DNA of 40,634 bases, from NCBI GenBank assembly GCA_027459625.1, contig DAIDHP010000037.1:1-40634 (forward strand), written 5' to 3'. Positions 971 to 22,745 of the stretch are shown piece by piece. Within the stretch, counting starts at the first letter, position 1; every line of letters starts with the position of its first letter. The stretch comes from Chthonomonadales bacterium. Its GTDB lineage: Bacteria; Armatimonadota; Chthonomonadetes; Chthonomonadales; CAJBBX01. A program made the translations under genes and the position numbers. The notes beneath the pieces are model-generated. The model was not told the origin of the DNA and made no database searches. It was given only the letters and a program-made list of their open reading frames with translations.

Positions 971-1777
971 TTAGAATAGCCTTCTTAAATACTCCATGCT
1001 CTTTTGTGCCCAATCACGTTCATGGGCGATGGTTTTATCCAGAGATTCACACCATGGAGTCCATTGCTCAAGTATGGCGTTTGGATCGCGACCAACTGAC
1101 TGGATACGCTTCAATAACGCAGGGATGTCAAGCCTTCCCGAACCCGCGATGGCTCCTTCAATGAAAAAGCCCATCCTATGGTCCATTCTCCGGATATTAA
1201 AGTCTTTCACATGCAGACTGACGCAATGAGGCGCTAAAATTTCCGCAACCATTTCCGGTCCTTCCAATGCGCCGAAGGAGTTCACGGTGTCCAAGCACAC
1301 TCCTATCCAATTCGTTTCAAGAGCATTCAGGATGTCAAGGATATCGGATATGGCAAACCTATCATGATTCTCTATGGCCAGAGTAACTTTTGATCGCTCA
1401 AAATAAGTCACAAGAGATTTCAGGCGACGAACAAGCTCACTGGATGAGGGATGGTCGAATTCGTCGTCCGGAACCATTCTCAAAATTGGTGAGCCTATGC
1501 GTTGAGCGAGTTCCACACTGCTTTGGATATGCAACGGGGAGCTGCCACGTATCCCGTATTCGAGAGTTATTCCCTTGGATTGCGCAGTTCTAACGAGATG
1601 TTGAAAATCCGAATCAGCTAAGGAATCGAGAGGCAGATTGTCGCAGAACTGCACCACTTCCCCCCCCAATTCGTCGGTGATATTCAAAAGGTCCATTGCG
1701 CTCATGGGTTTGCGAGGTGAATAGCCAGGCACGCCTATCGCCCAGGCAAAAGCGTAAGAACCAATTCCAAGTTTCAT
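971..1777 (-). CDS. oiaC: OiaC-like 3-oxo-isoapionate decarboxylase (xylose isomerase-like TIM barrel)
   Basis: This 268-residue protein has the AP-endonuclease-2/xylose-isomerase-like TIM-barrel fold. Metal ligands are visible at the expected strand ends: E136 (AIENHDR), D163 (CLDTVNS), H189 (LHVKDF) and E237 (ILEQW). The family contains isomerases, epimerases and, in the described D-apiose pathways, OiaC, which decarboxylates 3-oxo-isoapionate to L-erythrulose. The fold alone does not fix the reaction. The specific call rests on the neighbours, since the three genes upstream match the preceding three steps of that pathway in order. The ATG overlaps the stop of the apnO-like gene (ATGA), so translation is probably coupled. 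It is the last gene of the operon. The alternative is a generic sugar-acid isomerase or epimerase. Confidence 0.7.
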   Translation of the reverse strand: MKLGIGSYAFAWAIGVPGYSPRKPMSAMDLLNITDELGGEVVQFCDNLPLDSLADSDFQHLVRTAQSKGITLEYGIRGSSPLHIQSSVELAQRIGSPILRMVPDDEFDHPSSSELVRRLKSLVTYFERSKVTLAIENHDRFAISDILDILNALETNWIGVCLDTVNSFGALEGPEMVAEILAPHCVSLHVKDFNIRRMDHRMGFFIEGAIAGSGRLDIPALLKRIQSVGRDPNAILEQWTPWCESLDKTIAHERDWAQKSMEYLRRLF

Positions 1778-2616
1778 TCACCCTCCGTAACGCCTTGAAC
1801 AATCGCTTGCACCTGCTCTTTGACGGATTCAGGCTCAAAAACACGCTTCCAGTCAGGTTGAAATATCCGTTTCCTACCGTATTCTATTATCAGTTTCGCT
1901 CCATCCGAGAAGGGGCTGGATATCTCCCCGAATACGATCGCCAATGGGATATTCACATGTCCAAGGATAAAATCTCGCGCAGCTTCATCTGGGACGCCTC
2001 GGTTTATCGCCTCCTGCATCGCTTCTCGTATGATTGTAACACATGCAGCCGTCACGGTTTCCGCCATGGCGGGTTCCAATATCGCCATCTGCTCAACGGT
2101 AATTCTGTGAGAGCGAGTGACTGGTGCGAACATAGCGATCGCGATAGCTTCCGCCCGCGCATAATCCTCCTCTTTGCCTTGCATCAAGGCGCATACAATA
2201 GGTTGCTTCGCTAATATCCCCCCGAAAAAGTCGTGTCGCGCATCCCCAGTCTCCTCATTGAATACAGGGGGATGGCAGGGATGGGTGACGAAATAGGAGA
2301 TATCATCCCGTCGAGGTAACTCCCCTGCATATGCTGCGGCGGGATCCAAAAGCATCACAATGGCCCCGCTGATGATGAGGGGAACCGCATCTGCAGCCAC
2401 CATGCCAAGACTACGGTCCGGAACCGCCAGGATAATCACGTCAGCATCTCTCACCGCCTCCGTTAACGGGATGGGTTCCAATCCCCTCGATTTTAGATTC
2501 TGAATCCCTGTTTCGCTGATCTCCACGTAACTCATTGAATATTCAGATTTTTTCAGGTTGTCGGCAAGGCGGCATCCCATTTTTCCTCCGGCGCCCACCA
2601 AAGCGATTTTTATCAT
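1774..2616 (-). CDS. apnO: ApnO-like D-apionate oxidoisomerase
   Basis: A 280-residue NAD(P)-dependent enzyme with an N-terminal Rossmann fold (KIALVGAGGKMG) and an all-helical C-terminal domain of the phosphogluconate-dehydrogenase-C type. The signature THPCHPP lies near residue 120 and a GHVNIPLA helix follows later. ApnO oxidises and rearranges D-apionate to 3-oxo-isoapionate, and the short Rossmann plus helical architecture with the HPCHP motif is what I associate with it. I start it at 2616 rather than the in-frame ATG at 2628 because GGAG precedes 2616 by six bases and this choice gives a clean ATGA overlap with the upstream dehydrogenase. Its own stop overlaps the oiaC-like start. The cofactor preference (NAD or NADP) is not resolved. 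Confidence 0.75.
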   Translation of the reverse strand: MIKIALVGAGGKMGCRLADNLKKSEYSMSYVEISETGIQNLKSRGLEPIPLTEAVRDADVIILAVPDRSLGMVAADAVPLIISGAIVMLLDPAAAYAGELPRRDDISYFVTHPCHPPVFNEETGDARHDFFGGILAKQPIVCALMQGKEEDYARAEAIAIAMFAPVTRSHRITVEQMAILEPAMAETVTAACVTIIREAMQEAINRGVPDEAARDFILGHVNIPLAIVFGEISSPFSDGAKLIIEYGRKRIFQPDWKRVFEPESVKEQVQAIVQGVTEGE

Positions 2617-3647
2617 GGTCGTCTCCATTTCCTCATATCAATACTATTGTTGGTCCGTGCGGATTCATAACTGGCGAAGACCAACCGCATCGTCATCAAA
2701 TTGTCATTTCCATGCGTCTCCGCAAGCCCTCCAGTCTGTATCGCTTGGAGCATATTCGCATTGCATGGCACTATGCTGGAATGCACCACATAGTATGCCG
2801 GATCCGCCCAGTGGTATCTAGGTGGAGGACAGCGTCGCAGCAAAGTGCCCGATTCCGTTGTGGAATGAATCCAATAGTCCGTAGAGAGATCCAATGATCC
2901 CTTATTTCCCTCAATAAACAGAAAAGTTTGGGGAAACTTCTCCTTTTCGGTGCGACTGGCATAACTCATATCGCAGACAACGGTCATGCCATTTTCCATT
3001 CCCATCATCACCGTTGCAACATCCTCCCCTTTAATATCCCCAATACGATGTGTACGACAAGTGAGAGTCTCCGCCTCCCCGAAGAGAAAACGAACGGTGT
3101 CCAGAATGTGGCTTCCGATATCGGTAAGTATGAATTGTTCCAATTCTCTCAAGAAGGGTTGATTGTCGAAGACCGGAAAGCTACACACAAATTGGACACG
3201 AGCTCGGAATGGCTTCCCTATCACCCCGGATTCCAGAATGCTTTTCACCTCTCGTATCGGTGTCTGCCAACGCCAATTATCATGGATAAAAAGTGGAACA
3301 CCCGCCTGTTCACAAGCTTCCACCATCTCCTCCCCTATCTCCAATGAGGGAGCCATCGGCTTCTGGCAGATAACAGGAACGCGATATTTGGCTCCCAATA
3401 ATGTAAATTCCCTGTGCGTACCCACGTCGGTGATAATATCGATGAAATCCGGTTTGATCTCCTTCATTAATCGCTCCGCATCGTCATACACTGCGGAAAT
3501 TCCGAAATCTCTCCCCAACGCCTCAGCCTTGGAAAGCGTGCGATTGTAAAGAGCCACACATTCGTCGCCTTTCAACTCCCGCCATGCCGCCAATTGGAAT
3601 CTGGCCCAAAAGCCTGTTCCCAATATGGCGAACCGCAAGTTATCCAT
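2613..3647 (-). CDS. apdG: ApdG-like D-apiose dehydrogenase (Gfo/Idh/MocA family)
   Basis: A 344-residue cytoplasmic Gfo/Idh/MocA oxidoreductase. The Rossmann motif FAILGTGFWA is at the N-terminus. The usual EKP is QKP here (VICQKPMAP) and keeps the catalytic lysine. The C-terminal substrate-domain motif LTDIGSHILDTVRFLFG carries the conserved D and H. ApdG oxidises D-apiose to D-apionolactone with NAD. The family is broad, so the substrate is inferred from the adjacent ApnL- and ApnO-like genes. The start at 3647 is preferred over the ATG at 3653 because GGAGG sits six bases before it. The 5' end overlaps the lactonase gene and the 3' end overlaps the oxidoisomerase gene by ATGA, so the set is translationally coupled. 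Confidence 0.75.
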   Translation of the reverse strand: MDNLRFAILGTGFWARFQLAAWRELKGDECVALYNRTLSKAEALGRDFGISAVYDDAERLMKEIKPDFIDIITDVGTHREFTLLGAKYRVPVICQKPMAPSLEIGEEMVEACEQAGVPLFIHDNWRWQTPIREVKSILESGVIGKPFRARVQFVCSFPVFDNQPFLRELEQFILTDIGSHILDTVRFLFGEAETLTCRTHRIGDIKGEDVATVMMGMENGMTVVCDMSYASRTEKEKFPQTFLFIEGNKGSLDLSTDYWIHSTTESGTLLRRCPPPRYHWADPAYYVVHSSIVPCNANMLQAIQTGGLAETHGNDNLMTMRLVFASYESARTNNSIDMRKWRRP

Positions 3648-5598
3648 CGTCATCCTCCTTTGGGCAATCCACCCGTGTCACAGCGTATGGCTGCATTCTG
3701 AGTACAATTTCATCCTCTTGCACATCCATTTTGTCTCCCATTTCCGCTCTCCAACACTCCGGTTCCATTGACGCCTTGTTCACCGTCATTGCATCCAATG
3801 TCTTGATGAATGCATATGAAGCGCGGATAGGAAATCTCGCCTCTTGCGGGTTTGAGGTGATGTTGACGAGTATGAATCTACGGATTTGATGAAGCTCAAT
3901 TTGCATTGCAATCACGCAATCCGGTCGATCCGAAGTCATCGGAACAATCCTGCCACCTCTCATTTCACAGAAATCCGCCAGAATGTGGTAGAGCGGGAAC
4001 ACCGCGCCCGGTATCGAGGGGAACAATTCCGGAGGCGATTTTCGCCCTTCGTATTCCATTACACCTCGCCATCCGATTGTTTGATAGTAGGTGATTCCGC
4101 TCGTCCCACTCTCCGCAAGATACTTCAAGCTGCCCGCCGTCCATGCCGCCCCGAAGAGTGCGCACTGACGGGCATCCACCTGAAAAGGCAATTCCCCAGG
4201 TGCGGGCAAGGTCTCTTCACGAGTGGCGTTGGGATTGAAGCGAGGCTTGAGTGTGACCGGGGTGACGAATATCGGCTTGTTTCCGCAGAAACAACGAGCG
4301 CTCCTCACTGTTTCCCCCTGTATCTCCAGTGTTTCCATGAGGGAACGATCGTCGAATACGTGCACTTGAGGGTTCACGGAATAGCACACCCCATCCAGCT
4401 GTTCGGCATGGGGACGATTACGATTCAGTTCTGCGAAATAGGCGTTCGTTCCACTTAGCAACAACGCCTCCGGGGCAAATCGCTCCATCAGACTGCGAAC
4501 ACGAAGGATGGTGTCGTCTGCGATTGCATGAAAGTCGGATCTATAGATCGCCATGAGGCATATGGGTGTGCGATTACTCTGAAGGACTTCCTCCAAACGA
4601 TCCAAGTCATGCCTCCAGTGGTCACCGAATGCCAAAGCCAATTCCAGAGGACACTCCAACGATTCACACTGCCTTCCCGCGTTTTGTAATTGTTCGACGG
4701 AATCGGATGGTTCCAGTAATAGATCACACCTCAGACGGGCGGGATGCAACGCTCTGAGCTGTCCCCGCTCCTTATCCGAAAGAGGTACCGGCGGGGTGAC
4801 ATACTCCAAACCGATTGCGGGCAAGGGGAATCCACCGCTCAGAACGGGGGATATGCTGACGATGTCGCTTGTCGGCGTTCGAGCATGCCAACCGCGTTTT
4901 TTCCTTGCGTCATCAAGACTGATTGTAACGGTTTGATGAATATTCGTGCCTTTTGCGATGCGATGAGGAGATGGAATCGCCAAGGGGGGTGCGTAAGTTT
5001 TAAACGATGCGTCCGTCCAGTTGCGTTGATCTTCAGTCTCGAAGATGTCCCCTCCCATGCTCACTTTGACGACGCTTCCATCCTTCAACCCGTAAGAAAT
5101 CGATCTCACGTTGACAAAGGGCTGAAAAGGACTAATCCTATCGGGGAATTCACTTCTCTCGGATGTTCCATCGATGTGCTCTATGACACACGGCTTCCCA
5201 GCGCATTCGCGTATGGGATGCAATACACAGAATCCAATCCGATTGGCTTCGAAATCCGCAAGAGCCTCTCCGAACATTGCGAAACTTACCATACCATTGG
5301 TATTACCGTAGATCGTCGCACGCCAATGAAAATCAATCTCATTTTCATGGTGACGAGCCGTAAATCGGATGTCAAACGAATTTTCACGAATGATCGCCTC
5401 TTCCTCCTCGATGAGGAATGGTATTGTGTTCCAGTTTGCATCCCGTACCGCCATGTATACACACTGTATTACTTCCCAGTCTCTGATGCGTATGTCTCGC
5501 AATTCGCCATTCGCCCCGTACATCAAGAGCGGCCCCGCTCTCAGTTCCCCATCCACCATTTTCGACTTTTTGTCCTCCCTGAGTCGGTTTTGACTCAT
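3640..5598 (-). CDS. apnL: ApnL-like D-apionate lactonase
   Basis: This 652-residue protein without a signal peptide would hydrolyse D-apionolactone to D-apionate. Recognisable blocks are ELRAGPLLMYGANGELRDIR at the start, AVRDANWNTIP, the segment IGFCVLHPIRECAGKPC, and EDQRNWTDASFKTY near residue 190. They form a beta-sandwich-like N-terminal half. A TIM-barrel-like C-terminal half follows (GISYYQT-type motif, here GITYYQTIGWRG). It is far larger than common lactonases, as I recall for the described ApnL enzymes. An internal ATG at 5559 with GGGAGG 13 bases upstream is an alternative start that trims 13 charged residues. It begins 11 bases after the GH140-like gene and overlaps the apdG-like gene by a few bases. 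Function is assigned by family resemblance plus pathway context. Confidence 0.72.
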   Translation of the reverse strand: MSQNRLREDKKSKMVDGELRAGPLLMYGANGELRDIRIRDWEVIQCVYMAVRDANWNTIPFLIEEEEAIIRENSFDIRFTARHHENEIDFHWRATIYGNTNGMVSFAMFGEALADFEANRIGFCVLHPIRECAGKPCVIEHIDGTSERSEFPDRISPFQPFVNVRSISYGLKDGSVVKVSMGGDIFETEDQRNWTDASFKTYAPPLAIPSPHRIAKGTNIHQTVTISLDDARKKRGWHARTPTSDIVSISPVLSGGFPLPAIGLEYVTPPVPLSDKERGQLRALHPARLRCDLLLEPSDSVEQLQNAGRQCESLECPLELALAFGDHWRHDLDRLEEVLQSNRTPICLMAIYRSDFHAIADDTILRVRSLMERFAPEALLLSGTNAYFAELNRNRPHAEQLDGVCYSVNPQVHVFDDRSLMETLEIQGETVRSARCFCGNKPIFVTPVTLKPRFNPNATREETLPAPGELPFQVDARQCALFGAAWTAGSLKYLAESGTSGITYYQTIGWRGVMEYEGRKSPPELFPSIPGAVFPLYHILADFCEMRGGRIVPMTSDRPDCVIAMQIELHQIRRFILVNITSNPQEARFPIRASYAFIKTLDAMTVNKASMEPECWRAEMGDKMDVQEDEIVLRMQPYAVTRVDCPKEDDDG

Positions 5599-5609
5599 CC
5601 TATGCGGGA

Positions 5610-6902
5610 TTAATCCGCAGGCGCAGGATAATTTTTACTAGCATCATCCAAAACCAGCACCCAGTCCGGCCCCATGGAGGGAGGTGCGAAAGCACGAATG
5701 CCGCAGCATGGAATCTCCTCAAGATGACGCAACGTGCCAGTGCGGGGATCATACCAGCCGACGGACAAGATGTCAGCGGTGAGGAGGTTGAGGTTGATTT
5801 CCACCGGCTTTCCCGACGGAATGTAGATAAGCGCGTAGCTTCCCGATTCATCTCTTGTGGCGCATACATGGTCTGTTACCTCTCCTATATCGGATGAGAC
5901 CAGGTTCTGATCCGGAATGCGTTCCGTAAACGGTCGGGACTCCAGCAGTGCTCTCGCATGCCTCATCTGACTCGCTCCTGGCAGATGGAGCGCTTCGCGC
6001 CAAGGTCTCCGCGCCCATGTGACGGATTGTCGTCCGAAATCCAGAAACTGCCAGATGGGATGGCATCCGTAGGTGTGTCCGTGCGCGCCGGAGAAGAGTG
6101 ACCAGTACGCCGCCTTACGCGCATCGTAATCATCCAAATAGCCGTTATTCAGATTGAAACTTGACGCGTGATCCTCGTAGCCGGGTTCGGCGTCCATCAC
6201 CGGCTTGACGGATGTCGATCGGTACGTACTCGAAATAAGGTCGTAGTTATTACGATTTCGGTCATGTCCGGACTGCCACATGTGAAAATCAAGCCATTCC
6301 GCATTGGGAAAATACTCGGAGGAGCATTTTCCGCCTGTTGGGTGAAATGAGATAAGATGCGATCCCCCGTCCCCTATGCGCAGTCCCATAGCCATGCTCT
6401 TGATAATTTTTCGATGGATATCCGTCTCCACGGGGCGATCTCCTCCGAGTATCCAGATGATGGGCTTGGATGCGTATCTTCGTCCGAGAAATTCTCCGTA
6501 TGTGATCGCATTTTCCGGTGTGAATATCTCCGGCCCCTCCCCCCAGCATCTATTCCACTTATCGCCCCAAGTCGGAAGCATGCCGATAAAAAGACCCAAC
6601 GACTCCGCCATATCCACCACACTATCCACATGCCGGAAGTAGTTTTCGACTGGCTGGAGCGGGTCGTTATTTTTTATCGGCATATCCCCGTTGGCGTTTG
6701 GAACTGTCAAGCCCGCGAATTCCGCGAGAATGACCGCTTGGATGACGGTGAACCGTTTCGCGACACGGTCGTGGAGGTAATGCTCTGTCTCGGATAAATC
6801 TAACCGGTGAAACAGCTCCCAAGCGGTATCCCCGAGATAAAAAAAGGGGGAATTATCCTCCCATGTTAGAAAACGATGATTTTCACTGACTCTCAGATTC
6901 AT
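5610..6902 (-). CDS. GH140-type apiosidase (DUF4038), cytoplasmic
   Basis: A 430-residue glycoside hydrolase of the apiosidase-like DUF4038 class. Diagnostic stretches are FFYLGDTAWELFHRL at residues 20-34, YLHDRVAKRFTVIQ, and IIWILGGDRP with D155. VMDAEPGYED follows with E239. The D155/E239 pair matches in position the catalytic Asp/Glu I recall for the GH140 apiosidase from Bacteroides. A collagen-binding-like beta domain with a VGWYDPRTG motif closes the chain. It would cleave an apiosyl linkage and release apiose or apiose-ended fragments. There is no signal peptide, unlike the second family member at 21154-22745, so cleavage is predicted inside the cell. AAAGGAG lies upstream of the ATG. 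It is followed after 11 bases by the lactonase gene. Confidence 0.75.
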   Translation of the reverse strand: MNLRVSENHRFLTWEDNSPFFYLGDTAWELFHRLDLSETEHYLHDRVAKRFTVIQAVILAEFAGLTVPNANGDMPIKNNDPLQPVENYFRHVDSVVDMAESLGLFIGMLPTWGDKWNRCWGEGPEIFTPENAITYGEFLGRRYASKPIIWILGGDRPVETDIHRKIIKSMAMGLRIGDGGSHLISFHPTGGKCSSEYFPNAEWLDFHMWQSGHDRNRNNYDLISSTYRSTSVKPVMDAEPGYEDHASSFNLNNGYLDDYDARKAAYWSLFSGAHGHTYGCHPIWQFLDFGRQSVTWARRPWREALHLPGASQMRHARALLESRPFTERIPDQNLVSSDIGEVTDHVCATRDESGSYALIYIPSGKPVEINLNLLTADILSVGWYDPRTGTLRHLEEIPCCGIRAFAPPSMGPDWVLVLDDASKNYPAPAD

Positions 6903-6952: not shown

Positions 6953-9049
6953 TCATACTCTGACTTCAAAAGCTCGAAACTCCCATGATTCCATCTTCAG
7001 TTCAGCCCACTCGTTTTTTACTGGGATTCTCACTCCAGCCATTCGGTCGAAAAGAATTCCTGCAGGAGCTGGAATACGCACTCTTGCATTTACCGGATAA
7101 TTGGTGATGTTCCCTATAGTAACCACACACGGCATCCCTTCAAACATCTCCGCCATACAATTTTCGGTTTGCATCTCATATGCGGACATCGGATTTTGTG
7201 TGATTTCCGGGAAGGAATTGTAAACCCTTCTGGTATGCAGGCTGATAGTCTCCATCGCTTTTAGGTTGGAGTTATGCGAATAGATAAAGTGCCCTGTTAC
7301 AGAGTTCCAGATATGGCGATACTTCTCCATATCATCTCCGTCGTCGCTCTTTTTGCCATATCCCCAGCTTTCAAATGCGCGCATTTCAGGATATATATAA
7401 CGCACCAGAGGAACTGTAAAAGCTCCTTTGTTCCAGAAATGGCTATGGCTGATAAATCCATCCATATATTCCCGCGCCATATCCCATGCTCCCTCCGCGA
7501 ATAGAACCGTTTACGGATTCACCCTGTCCACCGCATCCCGCACTTGCCTGAGCATCTGGCGCAGTCCCCATCCCCATGTGTCCGGATGAGTGTGATTGTG
7601 CGCTGGGTTGAAGCAGCGATGAAAGTGGGTTGCGCAGCAGGAATCAATGAAAAAACCATCTACTCCGGTGCTTTTGATAATCTCGGCGCATGTCTCTGCA
7701 AGCCAGTTCCGCCATGGTTCACAGGATGGACACATATGCCAGAAGCCTTGATAATGCTCATCATATGCACCATCTTCCCGCATCAAAGCCCAATTTTTCG
7801 CAAGGGTTTTTCCAATGCGGGAACGTTTCCAAACAATCAATCCCTCAACGTAGTAAAGAACTCGCCCCCCTTGGCGATGAACCGCCTCCACGCCTTTTCG
7901 AACCGCATCAAAGCCCCCCATATTTTGCGCCGATAGATAATAATCACCTCGATTTTGCCAGTTGTGGGATTGTCCAAGAATCTCAGCATCATGAAAACCG
8001 GGAATCGAAAACAGGTCGGCGCCAGCGGATTGTTTCTTCGTCAGGATTTTGGGAAAGTCGTGAAATGTCTCTTCATGACGCACCATATCATCCCCCATAT
8101 CTTCTCCTATGAAGGTTGTGCTGCGATACCATTCCGCTTGAGATGAGCGAAAGGGGAGATAACCGCGCTTTTCACGGAGCCAATCTGCTCCAACTCGCCA
8201 GCACCCTTTATAGTGATAACATTGCACCGGGCCGAGGTCAACCGTATCTCCCCGGTATTCCATGGGAGGAACGCTTCCACGCAATTCAGCTTTCATGTCA
8301 TCATCCGACAGGGCGATATCATGGATAGACCGAAAACGACGAGTATGGCGAATCCCTGCATGACTTTCCATACGGTTTGGGGCAAGTGTTTTCAATTCCT
8401 CATTCTCCATATGGAGCACATTCCCCGCCAAATATTCCCTGTGCACCGATGCGCCAGGGTCGGCGGCGCAGTCGGTTCGGTTATCATCCAAAAAGGCGAC
8501 GCCTGAATTTCCCCCTTCATACAAAAAACATGGCGCGGATAGTCCTCCAGGATAGGAACCATGATAATGGGCGCCGCCCGGGTTTGTTAATGTCAACCCG
8601 GATACTGAGGGGAATATCGCTCTATCCTCTTCCGGAGAGTGGAAACTAATGCGGTAAAATAGAGGATAATACATCTGGACTTCGACTGCCTCTTCCCCAT
8701 TCCAACAGAGCTGACCCCGCCATATTGAGACGTTTCCTTCCACTTCTATCCACAGTCCAAGCAGCATCGGAAGGGATGCATGTTTCAAATAGACCAGAAG
8801 CGATCTATCATCATGCTCGATATGGGTGATATGGAAGGTCTCCATACCATAACAACCTGCATATTCGCCATCGGGAATTATCGCAAGAAACGGATTTCCC
8901 CGTAATCCCGCTATGCTTTGAGTAGATATGGCATCCTGAAATAACACAGGCTTGCCATCATTGCGCTCCATTTGCATCAAAGCAATGCGTCCATCTTCGT
9001 GCAGAAAGGATAATATGATCCCCGGGCCTCTCAGAATTATCTGTTCCAT
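6953..9049 (-). pseudogene. DUF6259-like putative glycoside hydrolase, interrupted by one in-frame TAA
   Basis: The reading frame runs from ATG 9049 (AAAGGAAA upstream) to the stop at 6953, about 698 codons, broken only by a TAA at 7511-7513. On both sides the protein continues without a shift: DAVDRVNP before the stop and TVLFAEGAWDMAREYMDGF after it. The N-terminal third is a beta-sandwich. The middle looks like a TIM barrel with GGRVLYYVEGLIV and GVDGFFIDSCCATHFH, a strand-end acid typical of GH36/GH-D-like hydrolases. The tail is a beta domain. I compare it to DUF6259 proteins, whose substrate I do not know. There is no signal peptide. It overlaps the aldo/keto reductase gene by 13 bases. 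If the TAA is real, the protein ends before its final 175 residues. Confidence 0.6.
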
Positions 9050-10041
9050 CTTTTTTCCTTTGACCCAATCATACCCTCTCCGTATTCGATAAACATTAAA
9101 TCTTGAGGTGAGAGCTGAACATCCAGAGCGGTCATGCTGTCCCGAACTTGCTCCGGTTTGTGGCACCCAATGATAGGAACGGTAACAAACGGTTGTGAAG
9201 TGAGGTATCCCAGAACAATCTGAGTGATCGTCAATCCCGTTCGCGCTTTCACCTGCATCATTCGCTCAAATCTCACTCCGGTCTCTTCTGACTTATAAAA
9301 TCCGCGGAACCCTTGGTTCATCTGCTCCATCGTGCCGTTTTCCATCCGTTGAAATAGCCCGAATGCCTGAGATTGGTATGGTATCATCGCCATACCGCTC
9401 TCCACATGGAAACAATAACGCTCCTCATCCATCCATCCCAAGGTCGGGTCCCCATAGGGTGTTCCGGCTAGGATGGCGGCGTTCCACAGGGACTGATCCG
9501 CCACGAAACCCGCGATATTATGCTTGTCGGCGTACTCCTGCACCTCCCGCAACCTGGCGGTTTTCCAGTTCGAGGCTCCATAGTAGCGTATCTTGCCTGC
9601 ATGAACCTGGCTTTCCAGAGTCTCAAGGATCACCTCCACGCTAAGTTTCGGATCATCCCTGTGCAGCCAATAGAGGTCGATGCGATCCGTTTGGAGATGC
9701 TCCAGGCTCTCATCCACATCCTGAAGGATTTCCTTGCGGGACATACGCGGCACATCCATGGAATCCAGGTTTGGGTGCGCTCCTTTGGTTGCGACCACGA
9801 TCCCGTCCCTGTTCCTCCGTGCCTTCATCCACGACCCGATGGTCTTTTCGCTGGGGCTATGCAAACCTGAGACCCAGCTTCCGTATACATGCGCGGTATC
9901 GAGAAAGTTACCTCCAAGTTCGACGAAGAGGTCAAGAAGTTCGAATGAATCCTTCTCGTTAAGACTGGAGCCGATCTCCCCTGCGCCCAAACAGATAGAG
10001 GAGACATCAAGAGTTGTATTCGGTATGAGTATGTTGGTCAT
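9037..10041 (-). CDS. Aldo/keto reductase
   Basis: A 334-residue NADPH-type aldo/keto reductase with a TIM-barrel fold. The catalytic tetrad is visible: D in NFLDTAHVYG, Y in the same motif, K in VATKGAH and H in LYWLHRDDP. The C-terminal phosphate-binding region includes VTVPIIGCHKPEQV. It is the first gene of the apiose-type operon and overlaps the next gene. A reductase is not needed for the oxidative apiose route, so it may act on a different sugar, on a lactone or ketose intermediate, or on a substrate of the DUF6259-like protein. These roles are inference. The upstream 113-base gap to the secreted propeller gene contains no clear terminator, so the operon may begin at 13445 or have its own promoter here. 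Confidence 0.88.
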   Translation of the reverse strand: MTNILIPNTTLDVSSICLGAGEIGSSLNEKDSFELLDLFVELGGNFLDTAHVYGSWVSGLHSPSEKTIGSWMKARRNRDGIVVATKGAHPNLDSMDVPRMSRKEILQDVDESLEHLQTDRIDLYWLHRDDPKLSVEVILETLESQVHAGKIRYYGASNWKTARLREVQEYADKHNIAGFVADQSLWNAAILAGTPYGDPTLGWMDEERYCFHVESGMAMIPYQSQAFGLFQRMENGTMEQMNQGFRGFYKSEETGVRFERMMQVKARTGLTITQIVLGYLTSQPFVTVPIIGCHKPEQVRDSMTALDVQLSPQDLMFIEYGEGMIGSKEKRWNR

Positions 10042-10154: not shown

Positions 10155-13100
10155 TTATTTTATATTCCAGACACCCCATTTACCCGGGGTGAGTCGCGCC
10201 TCGGTGGGAACGTCATTCACCATGGCGGTGTCCGGGTTACTCCAGTAGATTCGTTGTTTTGTTTCCGAACCGTCTCCGCGTAAAACTCCCAAATCACCTA
10301 GCAACATCTGACCGGACTGTGGGGTGATGTTCAAAAGGGACAGCGGAACGACGAATTCAAAATTCCCGCTTGATTGAGCTAACTTCACTTCTGCACTGAC
10401 ATTACGGACGCTATCGAAATGCACCGTTCCAATTGGTGAGCCAAACAGATAGTCGTTTCCATTGGAGCCGTTCGCTATGACAGGCTTGTATAGGACTGCG
10501 CACGGCTTGCCTTTCACCAAAGCAACCAGTAAACGCATATCCCCGACAGTCGGGGCTATGCGATCCTTCGGAGCGTTTGGATCTGTTCCGATCATCATAT
10601 CCAACGCTCCACCCGTTTTGAAGAGGTAGTGGTAATCAGTACATGCATTCATTATGTCGTTTGCGCCTCCCAGCTTGTAAAACGCATACAATGCATCCTT
10701 TGTAAGCACAACGGAAACGGAGGCATTAGCATCGATCGTCGCCCAAGGTGCGTTTCGTGGCCAGTCGGTAAGATTCGCTGAAAGCTTTGGAGGGGAGGCG
10801 ACAATGGGTATATCCAGATTTTTCCGTACCGTAAGGGGTGTTGTATTCGCAGCAATTTCCGGAGGGCTTTTCCTTAAATGTACAGTACCCAAATCCATAC
10901 GTTGAACACTACTCAAGCCCTTTAATTGCACGATGCTGCAACTCTCCTTACCCACTTCCATGTAAATGGTTCCGTTCAAAGATTGCGTCATGGTGGGATG
11001 AAACTGTTCCCCTACGAAGCTCACATGATCAATGGTCATACCCCGTTTCGCCGTTGGCATTCGCAAAGAGGGAATGAAACGCTCGTCCCCTCCCAAAGTT
11101 TGAAGGAACATACCATCCATTGTTATCAGGTACATCTCTCCTTTGTCGCCATTAAGGCATTCCACGTATCCCGCGTCACCCTTCAATGGCTTCACCGGAG
11201 GGCCAATCAATCGGTTCGGGTCTTCGATGACGCCGGGACCGGGTTTTGTTTTTTGAACCGGAGAATACAGGTATTCCCATCGTTTGCCTCCATGGATGTC
11301 CGATCCAAACATAGCCGGGATGGAATCATCCGATTCAATAGTCCATTTACCTCCAATGACTGGCGAACGTTGCATTGGGTATCCGATGATTTTTTGATCT
11401 CTAATATTGTATTGCAATTCTCCGTTTGCTTCTATTTTCGGCGGCGCGATCCAAGTGCCCCATGATGTTGTGACGGACAAGTCCGGATTAACAATCGGCA
11501 TTAGTCCTATGTCATCCAACACTTTGCCATGAGTGTCTATTCTGGTAGTCACCAAATATTGTATTTCGTTTGGTTGGGCGATATGATCATTATTTCGATC
11601 GCACCAGATGAAGAAGACATGATGCGGATCATGCCCGGCCCAAAGTTTGTTGATGGATTCCATATTTTTCATTCGCCATCCCCACTGGGGACTGTTAAGA
11701 TCAGATGCGTCGGAAATCAGGACGATAGGTTTAGCAACTCCATCCTTGCCCAACCTCCAAATGCCTACTCCTCGATCCTGGTTCCAACGCTGGTCGCTGG
11801 TGTAACTATTGGTGAGATAAGTGTATCCTCCGGCGTGTATGGCGCGTTCCGGAGCGACCCCGGGTATGTTTTCAACTTTCATGTAACCGGGACGCCAAAT
11901 GATGTTTTTCACACGGGACGATCCTGTTTTCCAGTTCAGCAGGAACTCCATGCCTCCCATGCCGCTCCATTCGGAGTAGAATACATGCCTCTTATCCCAT
12001 GGGTCCAACGCCCCTCCACCGCCATACTTCGGCCCCCCGTAATATGCTCTCACAAACGCACCGTCAGTTTTCCAAACACTTATCCTCTTCGGCAAATATT
12101 CCGCTTCCGTCACCCAGAGTTGATTCTTATCATCAATAGCCATGCCACAAGGATGGCTCATGCGGAGCGGATCGTAATTCCCTATTTGAGGCCCTCCTGG
12201 CTTCCCTATGATTCGTAACAGAACCCCATTGGGGGAGAAAACCTTAATCTGATGACTTCCCCCTTGATTTATGCGTATTGTATTTCCGTTATCCGCCTTG
12301 TATTCGAAATGGGTTCCCCCCCAATCCGCCACGTATAGGTCATCCTTAGGATCCACAATTAATCTGCGAGGAGCTTCCAAGTGCGCGGTAACAATTGTCT
12401 CTGCGTTGAACAGTCCGGGAACACCGTTTCTTACCGCGAAGCGTACCACACGATCTCCTATGATCGCATATAGATTCCCCTTCGAATCAAATGCCAAGGC
12501 TCTTGGATGATCCACGGAAACGTGCCCTATTATTTTTTTAGTCCTCACATTCACGAAATAGATTCTATTTTCATTGGTAAAGCTAAAGAGCGCCATACCG
12601 TTGTAGACCGCCAAACCGTCCGATCCATATCCCTGAGAAAGGGATTTGAACTGCTTAATGACCGCTTGTGAAAAGGTGATACGCGATATCAAATGCAAAG
12701 ACCCGTCTTGCCTGAAACCTCGGACATCAACCGTGTTGTTGTCCGGGTCTCTCTCCCCGTTGGTGAATACATAAGCGAGGTAGTCCGCATCCGGGTGCCG
12801 ACCCATGTCACGGCAGGCGTGATCGGCGCCCCAAAATCCGGTATTCATACCATAGAGTCGACGCCCGTCCTCGTTCAGCCATACGAATTCATCCCCTGAT
12901 TCCCCTGAAGTGGAAACGATGAGAAAATGAGCATCACCCTTCCATAATGGAGTCGTGATGGGTTTGGGGAAATAGACAATGTCTCCCGCAGGCGTATGGT
13001 CGGCCAGCCATCCTCCGGAGCCATCCAGCGTAAACCATGGGGGTGTGCCCGGACTGTAGAATGAGAGATCATACTTCATATTAATCCTGCCGTGTACCAA

Positions 13101-13445
13101 ACCTTGCACATTATAAACTCCGGCCGGAACCGGGCGCCTCTGCAGGTTTCCCTGACTGTCCACCGTACCGATGTCATATCCATCCCAGCTCACCGTGTGC
13201 GCCCCTGCGGACATCCAAGTTCCCGAAACGAGGTTGCACACGCGATTGCCTGCTTTATCGTCCACAACGATTGTCACGTATCCTGAGGATTTCAACGTGA
13301 AGTGAATGGGAATGCCATATTCGCCAGTCACACCGAATGACTTAGCCAAGGCGGAAAGAGGTTTAATAATTATAAAAAAACATATAAGAATATGCAACGA
13401 TGCATATGAGAAATGCAAAAACCATTTATACTGATTATGCTTCAT
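10155..13445 (-). CDS. Large secreted NHL-propeller protein with Ig-like and CBM9-like domains
   Basis: A 1096-residue exported protein. A charged start and hydrophobic helix (IYFLI-rich, residues 8-35) form a signal peptide. A FlgD-like Ig segment follows (YVTIVVDDKAGNRV, then VSWDG and PVPAGVYNV). The central part carries repeated blades of the NHL/SMP-30 type (DHPRALAFDSKGNLYAI, RRLIVDPKDDLYVADWGG, HPCGMAIDDKNQLWVTEAE). The last 170 residues resemble a CBM9/DOMON-like sugar-binding sandwich that reads out LTDWPRNAPWATID to LTPGKWGVWNIK. I know no catalytic residue set, so it may bind or present carbohydrate, or be a lyase-like propeller. ATG 13445 is preferred to the TTG at 13454, with AGAAAGG upstream. 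An operator-like palindrome lies just inside its 5' end. Confidence 0.8.
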   Translation of the reverse strand: MKHNQYKWFLHFSYASLHILICFFIIIKPLSALAKSFGVTGEYGIPIHFTLKSSGYVTIVVDDKAGNRVCNLVSGTWMSAGAHTVSWDGYDIGTVDSQGNLQRRPVPAGVYNVQGLVHGRINMKYDLSFYSPGTPPWFTLDGSGGWLADHTPAGDIVYFPKPITTPLWKGDAHFLIVSTSGESGDEFVWLNEDGRRLYGMNTGFWGADHACRDMGRHPDADYLAYVFTNGERDPDNNTVDVRGFRQDGSLHLISRITFSQAVIKQFKSLSQGYGSDGLAVYNGMALFSFTNENRIYFVNVRTKKIIGHVSVDHPRALAFDSKGNLYAIIGDRVVRFAVRNGVPGLFNAETIVTAHLEAPRRLIVDPKDDLYVADWGGTHFEYKADNGNTIRINQGGSHQIKVFSPNGVLLRIIGKPGGPQIGNYDPLRMSHPCGMAIDDKNQLWVTEAEYLPKRISVWKTDGAFVRAYYGGPKYGGGGALDPWDKRHVFYSEWSGMGGMEFLLNWKTGSSRVKNIIWRPGYMKVENIPGVAPERAIHAGGYTYLTNSYTSDQRWNQDRGVGIWRLGKDGVAKPIVLISDASDLNSPQWGWRMKNMESINKLWAGHDPHHVFFIWCDRNNDHIAQPNEIQYLVTTRIDTHGKVLDDIGLMPIVNPDLSVTTSWGTWIAPPKIEANGELQYNIRDQKIIGYPMQRSPVIGGKWTIESDDSIPAMFGSDIHGGKRWEYLYSPVQKTKPGPGVIEDPNRLIGPPVKPLKGDAGYVECLNGDKGEMYLITMDGMFLQTLGGDERFIPSLRMPTAKRGMTIDHVSFVGEQFHPTMTQSLNGTIYMEVGKESCSIVQLKGLSSVQRMDLGTVHLRKSPPEIAANTTPLTVRKNLDIPIVASPPKLSANLTDWPRNAPWATIDANASVSVVLTKDALYAFYKLGGANDIMNACTDYHYLFKTGGALDMMIGTDPNAPKDRIAPTVGDMRLLVALVKGKPCAVLYKPVIANGSNGNDYLFGSPIGTVHFDSVRNVSAEVKLAQSSGNFEFVVPLSLLNITPQSGQMLLGDLGVLRGDGSETKQRIYWSNPDTAMVNDVPTEARLTPGKWGVWNIK
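13390..13407. promoter_or_regulatory. LacI-type operator-like palindrome 1
   Basis: The 18-base sequence ATATGCAACGATGCATAT is palindromic except for one position pair and is centred on CpG, as expected for LacI-family operators, where the hinge-helix leucine enters a central CpG. It lies 38-55 bases inside the secreted propeller gene and about 95 bases beyond the end of the LacI-family gene. It matches the sites at 15623-15654 and 20889-20906. Confidence 0.5.
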
Positions 13446-13500
13446 TATATGCAAACCTTTCTGGAAGCAATGTCACATCATTAGAGGCATGTCCGGGTGA

Positions 13501-14559
13501 TTACCGAAGACTCAATCGAAATGAGGCATGACGCACAAAGGATGGTAAAAAAAGGCTGATATTGCTCTCTGGATACTCGCCCTTTAACAGTTTGGGAAGG
13601 AACCGAAGCGCGATAATGTTTGCAAGATTTGTCACGTCCGTATCCTTGAACATATACCCCTCGCCGAATAGCAGAGGGGCATCCTCACCCCCCATGCCTG
13701 CCAATGTGATGTCGCCAGGCTCCCAGCCTAGCTTCAACCCGGATTTCGCCAATAACTTCTCGATGGTATGCCAGGCGCCTAAACCGGTTCCCATTGCGAA
13801 GGCTGTCGGACGATATTCCCTAGGGGCTGCAAGTATTTTTTCCAATTCCCTTTCAAGAACCGAAGTATCGTCATTGGTACATTCCATATCGTCATTAGCG
13901 GTCAGTATATATTCATCCTTCACTTCAATCCCTACACAGGAGCGCATACCACTGCGAAAACCTTCCAATAGTTTATGTTCGTAAACAAGATCATGGTCAT
14001 AACCTAAATAGGCAATCCTTGTATGCCCTAAGGAAGCCAGATACTTCACCGTATGCTCCATCATCTTGATGTGATCGAAGTCCACTTGACACCAGTAAGG
14101 ATGGCTCTCCTCGAAATGTCCTTTCACCACAAAAGGGATTTTTTCAGTTTCGAGCAGCATTGCTGATTGTTCGATATCCTTCTCCAAACCCCATAGGACC
14201 ACGGCGTCGCATACGGAGCGTGAAATCAGGTTTTTGATTCTTCTTTGAGCTTGTTCGTGGTCTCGCATCACTTTGACAAGAAGGTCGTAACCGATATTCG
14301 CCAACGTCTCCGCTAACACCTCCACGATGGCGTGCTGTCCTGGGGAATTAATGAAGAGACATGCCACTGTGTTGGTCCTTCCACTACGCAGCGCCCGTGC
14401 CGCAGCATTCGGACGGTAATTCATCTCCTTAGCGGTATTTAAAATCCGTTTACGGTTTTCCTCGGATGCCCATACGTTCGGACGTTCATTCAAAACACCA
14501 GCCACCAGGCTGATGGAGAGCTGCAGCTTCTTAGCGATGTCACGTTGCGTCACTCGCAT
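13501..14559 (-). CDS. LacI-family transcriptional regulator
   Basis: A 352-residue regulator starting at MRVTQRDIAKKL; an in-frame ATG at 14580 would add seven residues. The N-terminal helix-turn-helix (VTQRDIAKKLQLSISLVAGV) is followed by the hinge helix RPNAAARALRSGRTN with the leucine used for minor-groove intercalation. The remaining 280 residues form the periplasmic-binding-protein-like effector domain (VMRDHEQAQRRIKNLISR, GHTRIAYLGYDHD, ITLAGMGGED). Such proteins usually repress sugar-use operons and release DNA when a sugar or sugar phosphate binds. It is adjacent to and codirectional with the apiose-type operon. Three CpG-centred palindromes in the window are its candidate targets. 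The effector is unknown; apiose or an intermediate is a natural guess. Confidence 0.9.
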   Translation of the reverse strand: MRVTQRDIAKKLQLSISLVAGVLNERPNVWASEENRKRILNTAKEMNYRPNAAARALRSGRTNTVACLFINSPGQHAIVEVLAETLANIGYDLLVKVMRDHEQAQRRIKNLISRSVCDAVVLWGLEKDIEQSAMLLETEKIPFVVKGHFEESHPYWCQVDFDHIKMMEHTVKYLASLGHTRIAYLGYDHDLVYEHKLLEGFRSGMRSCVGIEVKDEYILTANDDMECTNDDTSVLERELEKILAAPREYRPTAFAMGTGLGAWHTIEKLLAKSGLKLGWEPGDITLAGMGGEDAPLLFGEGYMFKDTDVTNLANIIALRFLPKLLKGEYPESNISLFLPSFVRHASFRLSLR

Positions 14560-14946
14560 GAATTGATCACCTTCATACATTTTTGACGGACTAATATATT
14601 ATATACATCGTGAATAATGTCGATAATTCACGATACCCCAGACTCATACACATGTCAAACAATCATAATGTTACTGTCCGATCACAAAGCAGATTATTCC
14701 TTTACTTTGATTGTTTGGTATTAGGAGGTGATTGCAAAATTCAACAAAAGGTTCATTTGATCGCATATTTCACGATTTAGTGATACCCTAAACGAATTAT
14801 ACATTATCATTTTATGATAGCTATTCTTTCATGCCACACATTCCTATGGGTAATGGAAGCTGATGATCATGCATGCTATTCACAGCTTCCATATTTCCAT
14901 ATAACCACTATTCGCTTACTGACCTACATTTTCCGCTGTGGAAACA
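14560..14946. promoter_or_regulatory. lacI upstream region with inverted repeat
   Basis: This 387-base stretch holds no convincing gene. Close to the regulator start, TCGTGAAT at 14608-14615 and ATTCACGA at 14626-14633 form a perfect 8-base inverted repeat with ten bases between. A related TTTCACGA plus GTGATACCC motif recurs at 14768-14788. An AT-rich stretch (ATATATTATATACATC) lies between the repeat and the gene and contains a half match to the operator palindrome. It is likely the regulator's own promoter and possible autoregulatory site. The remainder shows nothing recognisable. Confidence 0.4.
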
Positions 14947-18877: not shown

Positions 18878-20836
18878 TTATGGTCGCCAGAGGTAAAGAA
18901 GATTTTTCCCTCGCCAGTCCTCCTCCACGAGCAGGAGATATTCGCCATTCTTTCGTTTGGTCGCCTGTATGGCATAGGGCATATCCTCCCAGCCCCAACC
19001 CTCTCCCGTCGCCTTCCCTGGTGAGAATGTGCCTAAGTATGCGCCATTGGACAGCTTCATGATATGCACGAGCTGCTTGCCATCGTTAGGCTTAACCATC
19101 CCGACGAACATATATTGACCAGCGATATCCACCGCCTCTGGCGTTAGCGGACCCTCCTTGCCGGTGTTTCCATCGCGAGGCATATCGATTGTCCATTTCA
19201 ATATTCGTTTCCCTTTAAGCCATCCATCGTATCTTCGCGCGGCTGCCCCCGCCACCCCCCATGTTTCAACATTCTGACCATTCAAATATCCCGTCAAATA
19301 AAGTGTGTCCGTTGAACAATCGTACATCACTCTCCGAATAAGTTGCCATCCATTAGGCCATTTCCAAACTTGCGGATTGGACCAATCATAAATCGGGGAA
19401 TGTTTTTCGTTCCACCCTTTGAAAGGAAAATAACGAATGGTTTGATTCGGTCCATCCCCATTCCATATTCCCCCTTTGGCATCCACATACCAAGCCCACT
19501 GATTATCTCCATGTATCCCCCCCACCCGATGAGCCAAGTATCCTTTGGGATTACCGAAGGTATAGATATCGTATCCGCCCGCGTATTGTCCTATGGTGTA
19601 TAGGAGACGATGACCGTCCAGTCGGCGCAGAATGGCGGTGCAGCCATATTTTGCGCGGGTGGCGTTTGGTCCTTTCAGAGGATTCAGGGATATACCAATG
19701 AGGCTCCATTCGGATCCCGGGGATTTACGCTCAAGGTCAAGATGAAAAACCGCAGTGCGACCATAGACGGTTTGTCCATCGGAATTGGGGTCAAACCCAA
19801 ACGTGTCCACAAAACTGAAACACCCAAGCTTCCAAAGCAATCTCCCATTGGGAGCATAGGATCGTAACAGCATGCTGCCGTTCGGACCGTTCCCGAAATT
19901 CATGCAAACATAGATATTCCCTTTGGCATCCGTACCGGCTCCGCGCAATGCGAACAGCTTTGTCGAGGTAACCACCCCCGGGATGCCAGAGAGAATTCCC
20001 CCTTTTCCGCCGAAAGCGCGAACCAATTTGGGCGTGTTGCGAATATCGTAGAACAAAATTTGCTGTCGAGGTCCATTGTCACAGATGATAAGCCGTCCTC
20101 GGTTATCGAAGGAGACAGCGGAAGGGTTCCCCAAACCGCTCACCTTCACCCCCGAGTATTTTCCCTTCTCCGTGTATCGTAAAACGGATTTCCCCTCAAT
20201 GATCCAAAGGTTTCCATCGGGAGCTATGGTTATCCCCTTGGCATTATCAATCGGAAAGGATCGGATCACACTCATATCCGATGCCGAGCGAATCTCCGCC
20301 TCCTTCGGATAAAGTATCGCCAATTCATGATTCCGCGCAGCCATGCCTATCGCCTTGTCCGGTGTGTCAACCGAGGTTTCGAACTTTGCGGAATCGAGGC
20401 CGCCTATTTTCCATGAAAACTTGAGCAGTTTTTTACCCGTGTTGGCGAAATAAATATGGTCTCCAAGGAGCGCCACCGCATGGTTGCCGGTATTCCAGCC
20501 CCATGCGCCTTCTCCTCCTTTAAGGTTTTCGGCCTTAAGAAGTACCCTGTTTGTTTTCCCATCCTTGTATAGTCCAGCGCAACGCCCCGCCTCGTCCCAG
20601 TCCACGCCGACGAGTACCGTTCCATCAGGAGAGACATCCATCGCGTTCGCCCCTTCCTGAACCCAATATCCATATCCGTTCGGACCACCATTGCCTCCGA
20701 AGCTGTTGCCCACCCAGCTAGTTTCATACGAGCCTGGCGGGACGTGAAATTTGGATACCGTTTGCGCCGAACATGGATGGCGCCAAACAAACATCGCCGT
20801 GATGAGAAACATGAGCTTGATCCGCTTATCGAACAT
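18878..20836 (-). CDS. Secreted NHL/SMP-30-like beta-propeller protein
   Basis: A 652-residue exported protein. It starts at MFDKRIKLMFLITAMFV (AAAGG nine bases upstream), and the signal peptide ends near CSAQT. Propeller blades are visible as repeated DG-turn segments: AMDVSPDGTVLVGVDWD, GITIAPDGNLWIIEGKS, AVSFDNRGRLIICDNG and GTDAKGNIYVCMNFGNG. Later there are blades with LYLTGYLNGQ and EGWGWEDMPYAI. The length suggests six to eight blades and no additional catalytic domain. It is similar in style to the 1096-residue protein at 10155 but lacks its CBM9-like tail. A function in binding or modifying extracellular glycan is inferred from its position between hydrolase and lyase-like genes. An operator-like palindrome lies 52 bases upstream of the start. 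Confidence 0.75.
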   Translation of the reverse strand: MFDKRIKLMFLITAMFVWRHPCSAQTVSKFHVPPGSYETSWVGNSFGGNGGPNGYGYWVQEGANAMDVSPDGTVLVGVDWDEAGRCAGLYKDGKTNRVLLKAENLKGGEGAWGWNTGNHAVALLGDHIYFANTGKKLLKFSWKIGGLDSAKFETSVDTPDKAIGMAARNHELAILYPKEAEIRSASDMSVIRSFPIDNAKGITIAPDGNLWIIEGKSVLRYTEKGKYSGVKVSGLGNPSAVSFDNRGRLIICDNGPRQQILFYDIRNTPKLVRAFGGKGGILSGIPGVVTSTKLFALRGAGTDAKGNIYVCMNFGNGPNGSMLLRSYAPNGRLLWKLGCFSFVDTFGFDPNSDGQTVYGRTAVFHLDLERKSPGSEWSLIGISLNPLKGPNATRAKYGCTAILRRLDGHRLLYTIGQYAGGYDIYTFGNPKGYLAHRVGGIHGDNQWAWYVDAKGGIWNGDGPNQTIRYFPFKGWNEKHSPIYDWSNPQVWKWPNGWQLIRRVMYDCSTDTLYLTGYLNGQNVETWGVAGAAARRYDGWLKGKRILKWTIDMPRDGNTGKEGPLTPEAVDIAGQYMFVGMVKPNDGKQLVHIMKLSNGAYLGTFSPGKATGEGWGWEDMPYAIQATKRKNGEYLLLVEEDWRGKNLLYLWRP

Positions 20837-20887
20837 CCTCTCATACCTTTCTATTAAAATCAATGCTGGGCATGGAACTGAAAAAAG

Positions 20888-21153: not shown

Positions 21154-22745
21154 TCAATCCTTGCTAATTACAAGCAAGGCATCCTCCCATCCCTGAGGGC
21201 GGGAGAGGGTGATCGACACGCCGACATGATTCATTTTGGACTTGGGCGTTCGCCCGCCCGTCTTTGGATCACGCCATTGAAACTCTATCGTCGAAGGAAG
21301 GCGAATGGAGGATATTTGAATGGAATCGTTATCGGGAAGATACGCCACAAGCAAGTCCCCTCTTGCTGAGGCGGCTAACGGCATATATTGTGTGGGTTCC
21401 TTGGCCTGGTTCATAACATACTCCGGATGCGGCTCCAACTCCCACCATTTCAATCCGTTTAGGAATTCCGAGAGATATTTCATCTGCATGGAGGATTCCC
21501 TATTCATTCCTTTTTCCCAACTCCACGCGCTTTCCTGAGGATCGCCGCCTCCCTTCACCCCCCAGTTCCATATCCCCGCGCACCCATACGTGTAACCCAC
21601 GCATCCGGAAAGGAGGCTCCAATACCCGCAACTCCTTGGCATACGGTCTCGCCGAAATCGCTGTCGTATCTCGATTCAAGGTCCACAACGGGTTTGACGG
21701 GTTGGAGCCGATAAAGGGCGAGACTCCATTCCACCGCATTACGCGCCGCGATATCGGCGCTGATGGGATTTCCGCCCCATCCCGCTCCCGTCTGCTCTCC
21801 ACTAATATCCAAATAAGGCTGGGCCCGATATTTGACGGAGGCGCTTAGCCCCGTTCCCGGATGCTGTGTGATGAGATGCATGGAGGAGGATTCCCTGATG
21901 GTGTTTCCGACGGAATTCGCCAAATCCATATACGGGCTGTCGAAGCTAGGCGAATATATCACGAAGTTTCCCATCAACCTAGCGACCAATTGCCGGGCGA
22001 AAGCCTGCGCCGATGCGGCGTTCGGATACCGTTTCACCGGCTCCATCAAACCCACAATCGCGACGGCAAGCCCCTGCTGATTGGCGAATTCGATTTTCTG
22101 TTCGTATTGACGCCCAAACGAGGGATTAATCTCCATGGGATTGTCGCGCAGCAGGGGCGGATCCCCTTGCCAGTCAAGACTTCCCTGCCAATCCTCAGCG
22201 CAGGATAGCTGCAATATGGAGAAACGTTTCTGCAAACGATCCGCCACGTAAACCTTCCAGTCTTCGAATTTCGCGTTCATCGGAGCCGCCCAAGCGGTAT
22301 CTCCACTCCACAAGAACGGCGTTCCATCATCATACGTTAGATATCGATTATTGGAGGAGACTCTGAAGTATCCGCGTCGGTACAAAGGGTTGGATCCGCG
22401 ATAGGGCTTCACATCCACCGTTCCGCGTTGATTGTGCAATCCGCTGTCGCTGGTGTCGGAGCAGGATGTCGCCCATTCCCATTTTCCGATATGCGGAAAC
22501 ATCGCCCTGATTTTGAACACGCTCCCTCCATCCCAGAAACCCAGCCCTTTTATAACGCTCCCCTTGTGCCCCCGATATGTCACGTATAAAATTACATCCG
22601 TGCCGGGGTTTGAGTAAGATTTCGAGCTCTGAAGGGAGTGCTCCCATCTTCTCCACGTTTGAACCAGGGGTTCTTTCGCTTCGGATAGCAGCGGAGCGCT
22701 GAGAAGGGATATTAAAAACGCTCTTCTCGTGATGGCCCTTTTCAT
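21154..22745 (-). pseudogene. Tat-exported DUF5060/apiosidase-like glycoside hydrolase, frameshifted
   Basis: The first 396-codon frame starts MKRAITRRAFLISLLSAPLL (Tat signal), then an N-terminal DUF5060-like sandwich (VILYVTYRGHKGSVIKGLGF, GKWEWATSCSDTSDSGL). A DUF4038-type barrel follows (LTYDDGTPFLWSGDTAWAAP, LQKRFSILQLSCAEDW, PVVDLESRYDSDFGE). Near 21640 homology jumps to another frame, MPRSCGYWSLLSGCVGYTYG, which carries the end of the barrel and the beta tail down to KD at 21154. A single small indel around 21630-21655 explains this. It is a secreted relative of the GH140-type enzyme at 5610-6902. The frameshift may be a real mutation or an assembly error. The upstream GH-A gene ends 21 bases before it, suggesting one operon. 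Confidence 0.7.

Follow-up and report, generated by a model that had tools for sequence, protein, structure and literature searches.

A predicted operon for plant apioside use in Armatimonadota joins a GH140 apiosidase to the oxidative D-apiose pathway

Introduction

Bacteria can break down D-apiose by an oxidative pathway composed of ApdG, ApnL, ApnO and OiaC (Carter et al. 2018, Nat Chem Biol, doi 10.1038/s41589-018-0067-7, as outlined in PMC6302742 and PMC13001218). Four overlapping minus-strand genes in a contig from a Chthonomonadales bacterium, analyzed here over a stretch of 40,634 nucleotides (hereafter the window), resemble these enzymes, and we wondered whether they form a complete apiose pathway in a lineage different from the Proteobacteria and other bacteria to which it had previously been assigned. 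With a probability of about 0.88, the block belongs to an operon for the use of plant apiosides in Armatimonadota, by which apiose would be cut off and then broken down to erythrulose and CO2. The pathway is already described and the host phylum is little studied; the linked apiosidase is the main addition.

Results and Discussion

Organization of the gene block

Read in the direction of transcription, the listed open reading frames on the minus strand encode an ApnL-like putative D-apionolactonase (3640–5598, 652 aa), an ApdG-like putative D-apiose dehydrogenase of the Gfo/Idh/MocA type (2613–3653, 346 aa), an ApnO-like putative D-apionate oxidoisomerase (1774–2628, 284 aa, or 280 aa from the ATG at 2616) and an OiaC-like putative 3-oxo-isoapionate decarboxylase (971–1777, 268 aa). 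All four frames, spanning 971–5598 in the order ApnL-ApdG-ApnO-OiaC, were found as the original prediction had described them. Two ATGA overlaps had also been claimed. One joins ApnO and OiaC at 1777–1774; the other joins ApdG and ApnO at 2616–2613, given that ApnO starts at its second Met, and with the upstream start the overlap is 16 nt. Between ApnL and ApdG the overlap amounts to 8 or 14 nt, according to the ATG chosen, with AAAGGAGG upstream. The block had been regarded as complete, but as delimited it is not: the operon also takes in a GH140 gene at 5610–6902, and neither this gene nor the wider cluster had been noted. Promoter and terminator scans performed no better than shuffled sequences.

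Family assignment of the four enzymes

In profile and PDB comparisons, each of the four proteins matched the family that had been named for it, with E-values from 1e-20 to 1e-95, far beyond chance, although ApnL falls under a curated cut-off and OiaC is assigned by context. For ApdG, which also matches Pfam GFO_IDH_MocA, the best PDB match over the full length is the group 5uhw/5uhz/5ui9/5uia/5uib (E 3e-86), the next structure reaching only 2e-17. ApnO matches 5t57 (E 3e-89) and 3c24 (E 7e-69) as well as PGDH_C (206.5 bits), and residues 116–121 of its 284-aa form read HPCHPP, the HPCHP motif being common to ApnO and 5t57. We take the 5uhw group to be ApdG and 5t57 to be ApnO, both from the 2018 work of Carter et al.

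ApnL scored 320.8 bits (E 1.7e-95) against the NCBIfam D-apionate lactonase model NF049900, whose curated cut-off is 750. Because ApnL homologues of other non-proteobacterial loci score alike (291–332 bits) and the Microvirga homologue reaches 899, above the cut-off, this threshold appears to be tuned to a narrower group. Identity is about 28–31% to rhizobial plasmid homologues and reaches 45% with those of other phyla. Residue 121 is the start of the block IGFCVLHPIRECAGKPC, and no second ApnL copy was found in the genome. ApnL alone is no marker of apiose use, since for many homologues, among them the closest (L009, 45%), the fetched DNA contains none of the other pathway genes. Four such loci from Poribacteria and Chloroflexi (L009, L010, L012 and L014) carry ApnL homologues of 38–45% identity with the other apiose genes absent from the fetched DNA.

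OiaC belongs to the xylose-isomerase-like TIM barrels (PF01261, 77.8 bits), and its putative metal ligands Glu136, Asp163, His189 and Glu237 are invariant in 11 homologues. The original prediction had named HPCHPP, these OiaC residues and the ApnL block, and each was confirmed at its stated place. The assignment of OiaC draws on gene context rather than on a solved or curated reference, as an OiaC homologue adjoins ApnO in Armatimonadota, Bacteroidota and Arthrobacter. In Arthrobacter, a DhaK-type kinase is encoded close to the ApnO-OiaC pair, as would suit a ketotetrose product. OiaC-like genes of alphaproteobacterial plasmids were left out as references because they are located in DhaK/transketolase/TRAP clusters without other apiose genes. 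Two of these clusters (L072, 10001–12608; L073, 8001–10567), in which the OiaC-like gene stands by a DhaKL-type kinase, a split transketolase, an SDR and a TRAP transporter, may represent a separate branched-acid pathway.

The best matches, together with the co-clustering of the genes, rule out an unrelated lactonase, dehydrogenase or isomerase. The functions of the four enzymes on apiose-derived substrates are predicted from the families described. The locus shares with the described oxidative pathway all four enzyme families, their clustering and the OiaC-type ending, whereas it differs in its Armatimonadota host, the gene order ApnL-ApdG-ApnO-OiaC, the strongly diverged ApnL and the presence of an apiosidase in the same operon.

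A GH140 apiosidase gene in the same operon

Directly upstream of ApnL on the same strand, a gene for a 430-residue GH140 protein (5610–6902) is preceded by the Shine-Dalgarno sequence AAAGGAG and ends with a stop codon 11 bases before the ApnL start. The protein consists of a PF13204 domain (388.3 bits over 1–319/320) and a C-terminal PF12904 domain (82 bits), and matches PDB 8t9w, named 'Apiosidase', with an E-value of 4e-132 and 3kzs/5msy with 1e-69. Asp155 (in ILGGD) and Glu239 (in DAEP) align with the same residues in 8t9w and 3kzs, which are presumably the catalytic pair of GH140. The enzyme thus resembles these GH140 proteins in its full-length match and in the conserved Asp and Glu, and differs from them in that it sits in an apiose-catabolism operon and has no signal peptide. 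Because its N-terminus, MNLRVSENHRFLTWED, shows no hydrophobic signal, the enzyme is probably cytoplasmic.

The GH140 gene links the block to apiose by evidence separate from that of the four pathway genes. Alternatively, the four enzymes might work on some other, related sugar acid, branched or plain. The divergence of these proteins from characterized ones, with ApnL at the identities and score given above, leaves room for such a substrate, and specificity changes easily in the Gfo/Idh/MocA and TIM-barrel families. However, a GH140-type apiosidase is encoded not only in this operon but also in nine other loci holding ApdG, ApnO and ApnL; for both ApdG and ApnO, one particular solved protein scores far better than anything functionally different; and the known alternative ending of apiose catabolism is found in sister clusters. 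Taken together, we consider a sugar-acid substrate improbable, and D-apiose remains the preferred substrate.

Neighboring genes and integrity of the operon

Upstream of the GH140 gene, the minus strand carries a DUF6259 glycosidase-like gene (6953–9166, Pfam match) that is split into ORFs of 551 and 175 aa by an in-frame TAA at 7511–7513. Its homologue in the Armatimonadota locus L118 (1628–3784) is one continuous 718-aa ORF, and the break in the window copy probably marks a pseudogene or an error of assembly. It is followed upstream by genes for a 334-aa aldo/keto reductase (AKR; 9037–10041, minus strand, PF00248, 186 bits) and a 359-aa LacI-type regulator (13501–14580, minus strand, Pfam match), which are 58% and 39% identical, respectively, to their homologues in the apiose cluster of L118. 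A second interruption was noticed at 21154–22745 (minus strand), where a DUF5060 plus apiosidase-like gene lies in two overlapping frames with an apparent frameshift near 21.6 kb.

These two broken glycosidase genes could indicate that the operon is decaying and that the pathway is preserved only as non-functional remnants. We regard this as highly unlikely: none of the five core genes (GH140, ApnL, ApdG, ApnO and OiaC) is truncated, and they retain conserved catalytic-type residues as well as their overlaps and ribosome-binding sites; since the genome is a 4.55-Mb draft in 114 contigs, the breaks may be assembly errors. The window also encodes two large minus-strand proteins of 1099 aa (10155–13454) and 661 aa (18878–20863) with signal-like N-terminal stretches and a repeat- or propeller-like character, neither having a Pfam match.

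Proposed route and fate of erythrulose

According to the predicted functions, an imported apioside would release D-apiose by the action of the cytosolic GH140 apiosidase. ApdG would oxidize D-apiose to D-apionolactone, which ApnL would hydrolyze to D-apionate; ApnO would then convert D-apionate by oxidation and rearrangement to 3-oxo-isoapionate, and decarboxylation by OiaC would yield L-erythrulose and CO2. The reactions of ApnL, ApdG and ApnO have received EC-level names (PMC11747546). Rhodobacteraceae strain LCG007, which combines the ApnL/ApdG/ApnO route with a kinase/phosphate decarboxylase ending, grows on D-apiose (PMC11747546). In the window cluster, Pfam recognized neither an OiaK kinase nor a RuBisCO-like protein (RLP), and OiaC is there instead.

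A further difference from the described oxidative pathway is that no Dak1 (Dak-type erythrulose) kinase was found in the genome; six FGGY-type kinase matches lie elsewhere without a tie to the apiose locus. The AKR may act on L-erythrulose, reducing it, or on another cluster intermediate, which is a guess. No transporter was recognized within the cluster, whereas Bacteroidota apiose clusters include either a sugar permease or an ABC transporter of the ribose type. The missing transporter and Dak1 kinase, like the low ApnL score and the isolated ApnL homologues, weigh against the apioside reading. The LacI-type regulator probably controls the cluster. A more elaborate scheme, in which whole apioglycosides would be processed inside the cell under LacI control by the cytosolic apiosidase with the DUF6259 protein as an undescribed partner glycosidase, and the AKR would reduce L-erythrulose in place of the usual kinase, is speculative and rather doubtful.

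Host lineage and recurrence across phyla

RpoB of the window genome is 68% identical over about 1,100 residues to that of the Armatimonadota genome of CAIVZM010000065.1, whereas the other 11 genomes tested gave 51–62% in their respective top segments. The host therefore belongs to Armatimonadota, which bears out the suggestion that the organism comes from a different lineage.

Of 291 Armatimonadota genomes, 55 carry ApnL-type genes. ApdG, ApnO and ApnL were found together in 11 Bacteroidota/Verrucomicrobiota loci and 8 further Armatimonadota loci. The last step in these 19 loci is provided by OiaC in 11 and by a kinase plus RLP in six; one locus (L033) has both, and one (L113), where the DNA stretch stops just after ApnO, has neither. 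The reading as an oxidative D-apiose pathway thus holds up, in that the families match and other genomes show the gene combination again, the last slot being filled by OiaC or its known alternative. Clusters of the OiaK plus RLP branch (Microvirga plasmid L061 and Armatimonadota L116, L117 and L120) have ApdG, ApnL and ApnO in common with the window but end by phosphorylation and RLP rather than by OiaC. L120, from the same taxonomic order as the window genome, reads GH140-ApnO-kinase-RLP-ApdG-ApnL. With one slot occupied by turns by OiaC or by a kinase and RLP, the pathway is a clear case of a modular last step.

Clusters in the Bacteroidota Telluribacter (L025/L026), Chryseolinea (L036) and Mucilaginibacter (L043) likewise bring together GH140, ApdG, ApnO, OiaC and ApnL, but add a ribose-type ABC transporter and arrange their genes differently. 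Eight genes (DUF6259, ApdG, ApnL, ApnO, OiaC, GH140, AKR and LacI) are common to the window and the Armatimonadota locus L118, also in a different order. We found no paper on apiose use in Armatimonadota in the literature library searched, and the present locus adds this phylum to those with the oxidative apiose route, here equipped with its own apiosidase. These observations suggest that the Armatimonadota carriers are able to use plant apiosides or rhamnogalacturonan-II fragments.

In phylogenetic trees, the supported set that includes the window ApdG consists of 11 Armatimonadota rows and one Verrucomicrobiota row, and the window ApnO pairs with that of L118 (support 95/87). A recent transfer from Bacteroidota is unsupported, as both proteins group with Armatimonadota. 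In another Armatimonadota cluster, L115, ApnO groups with Bacteroidota and ApdG with Armatimonadota, which suggests gene replacement inside that operon.
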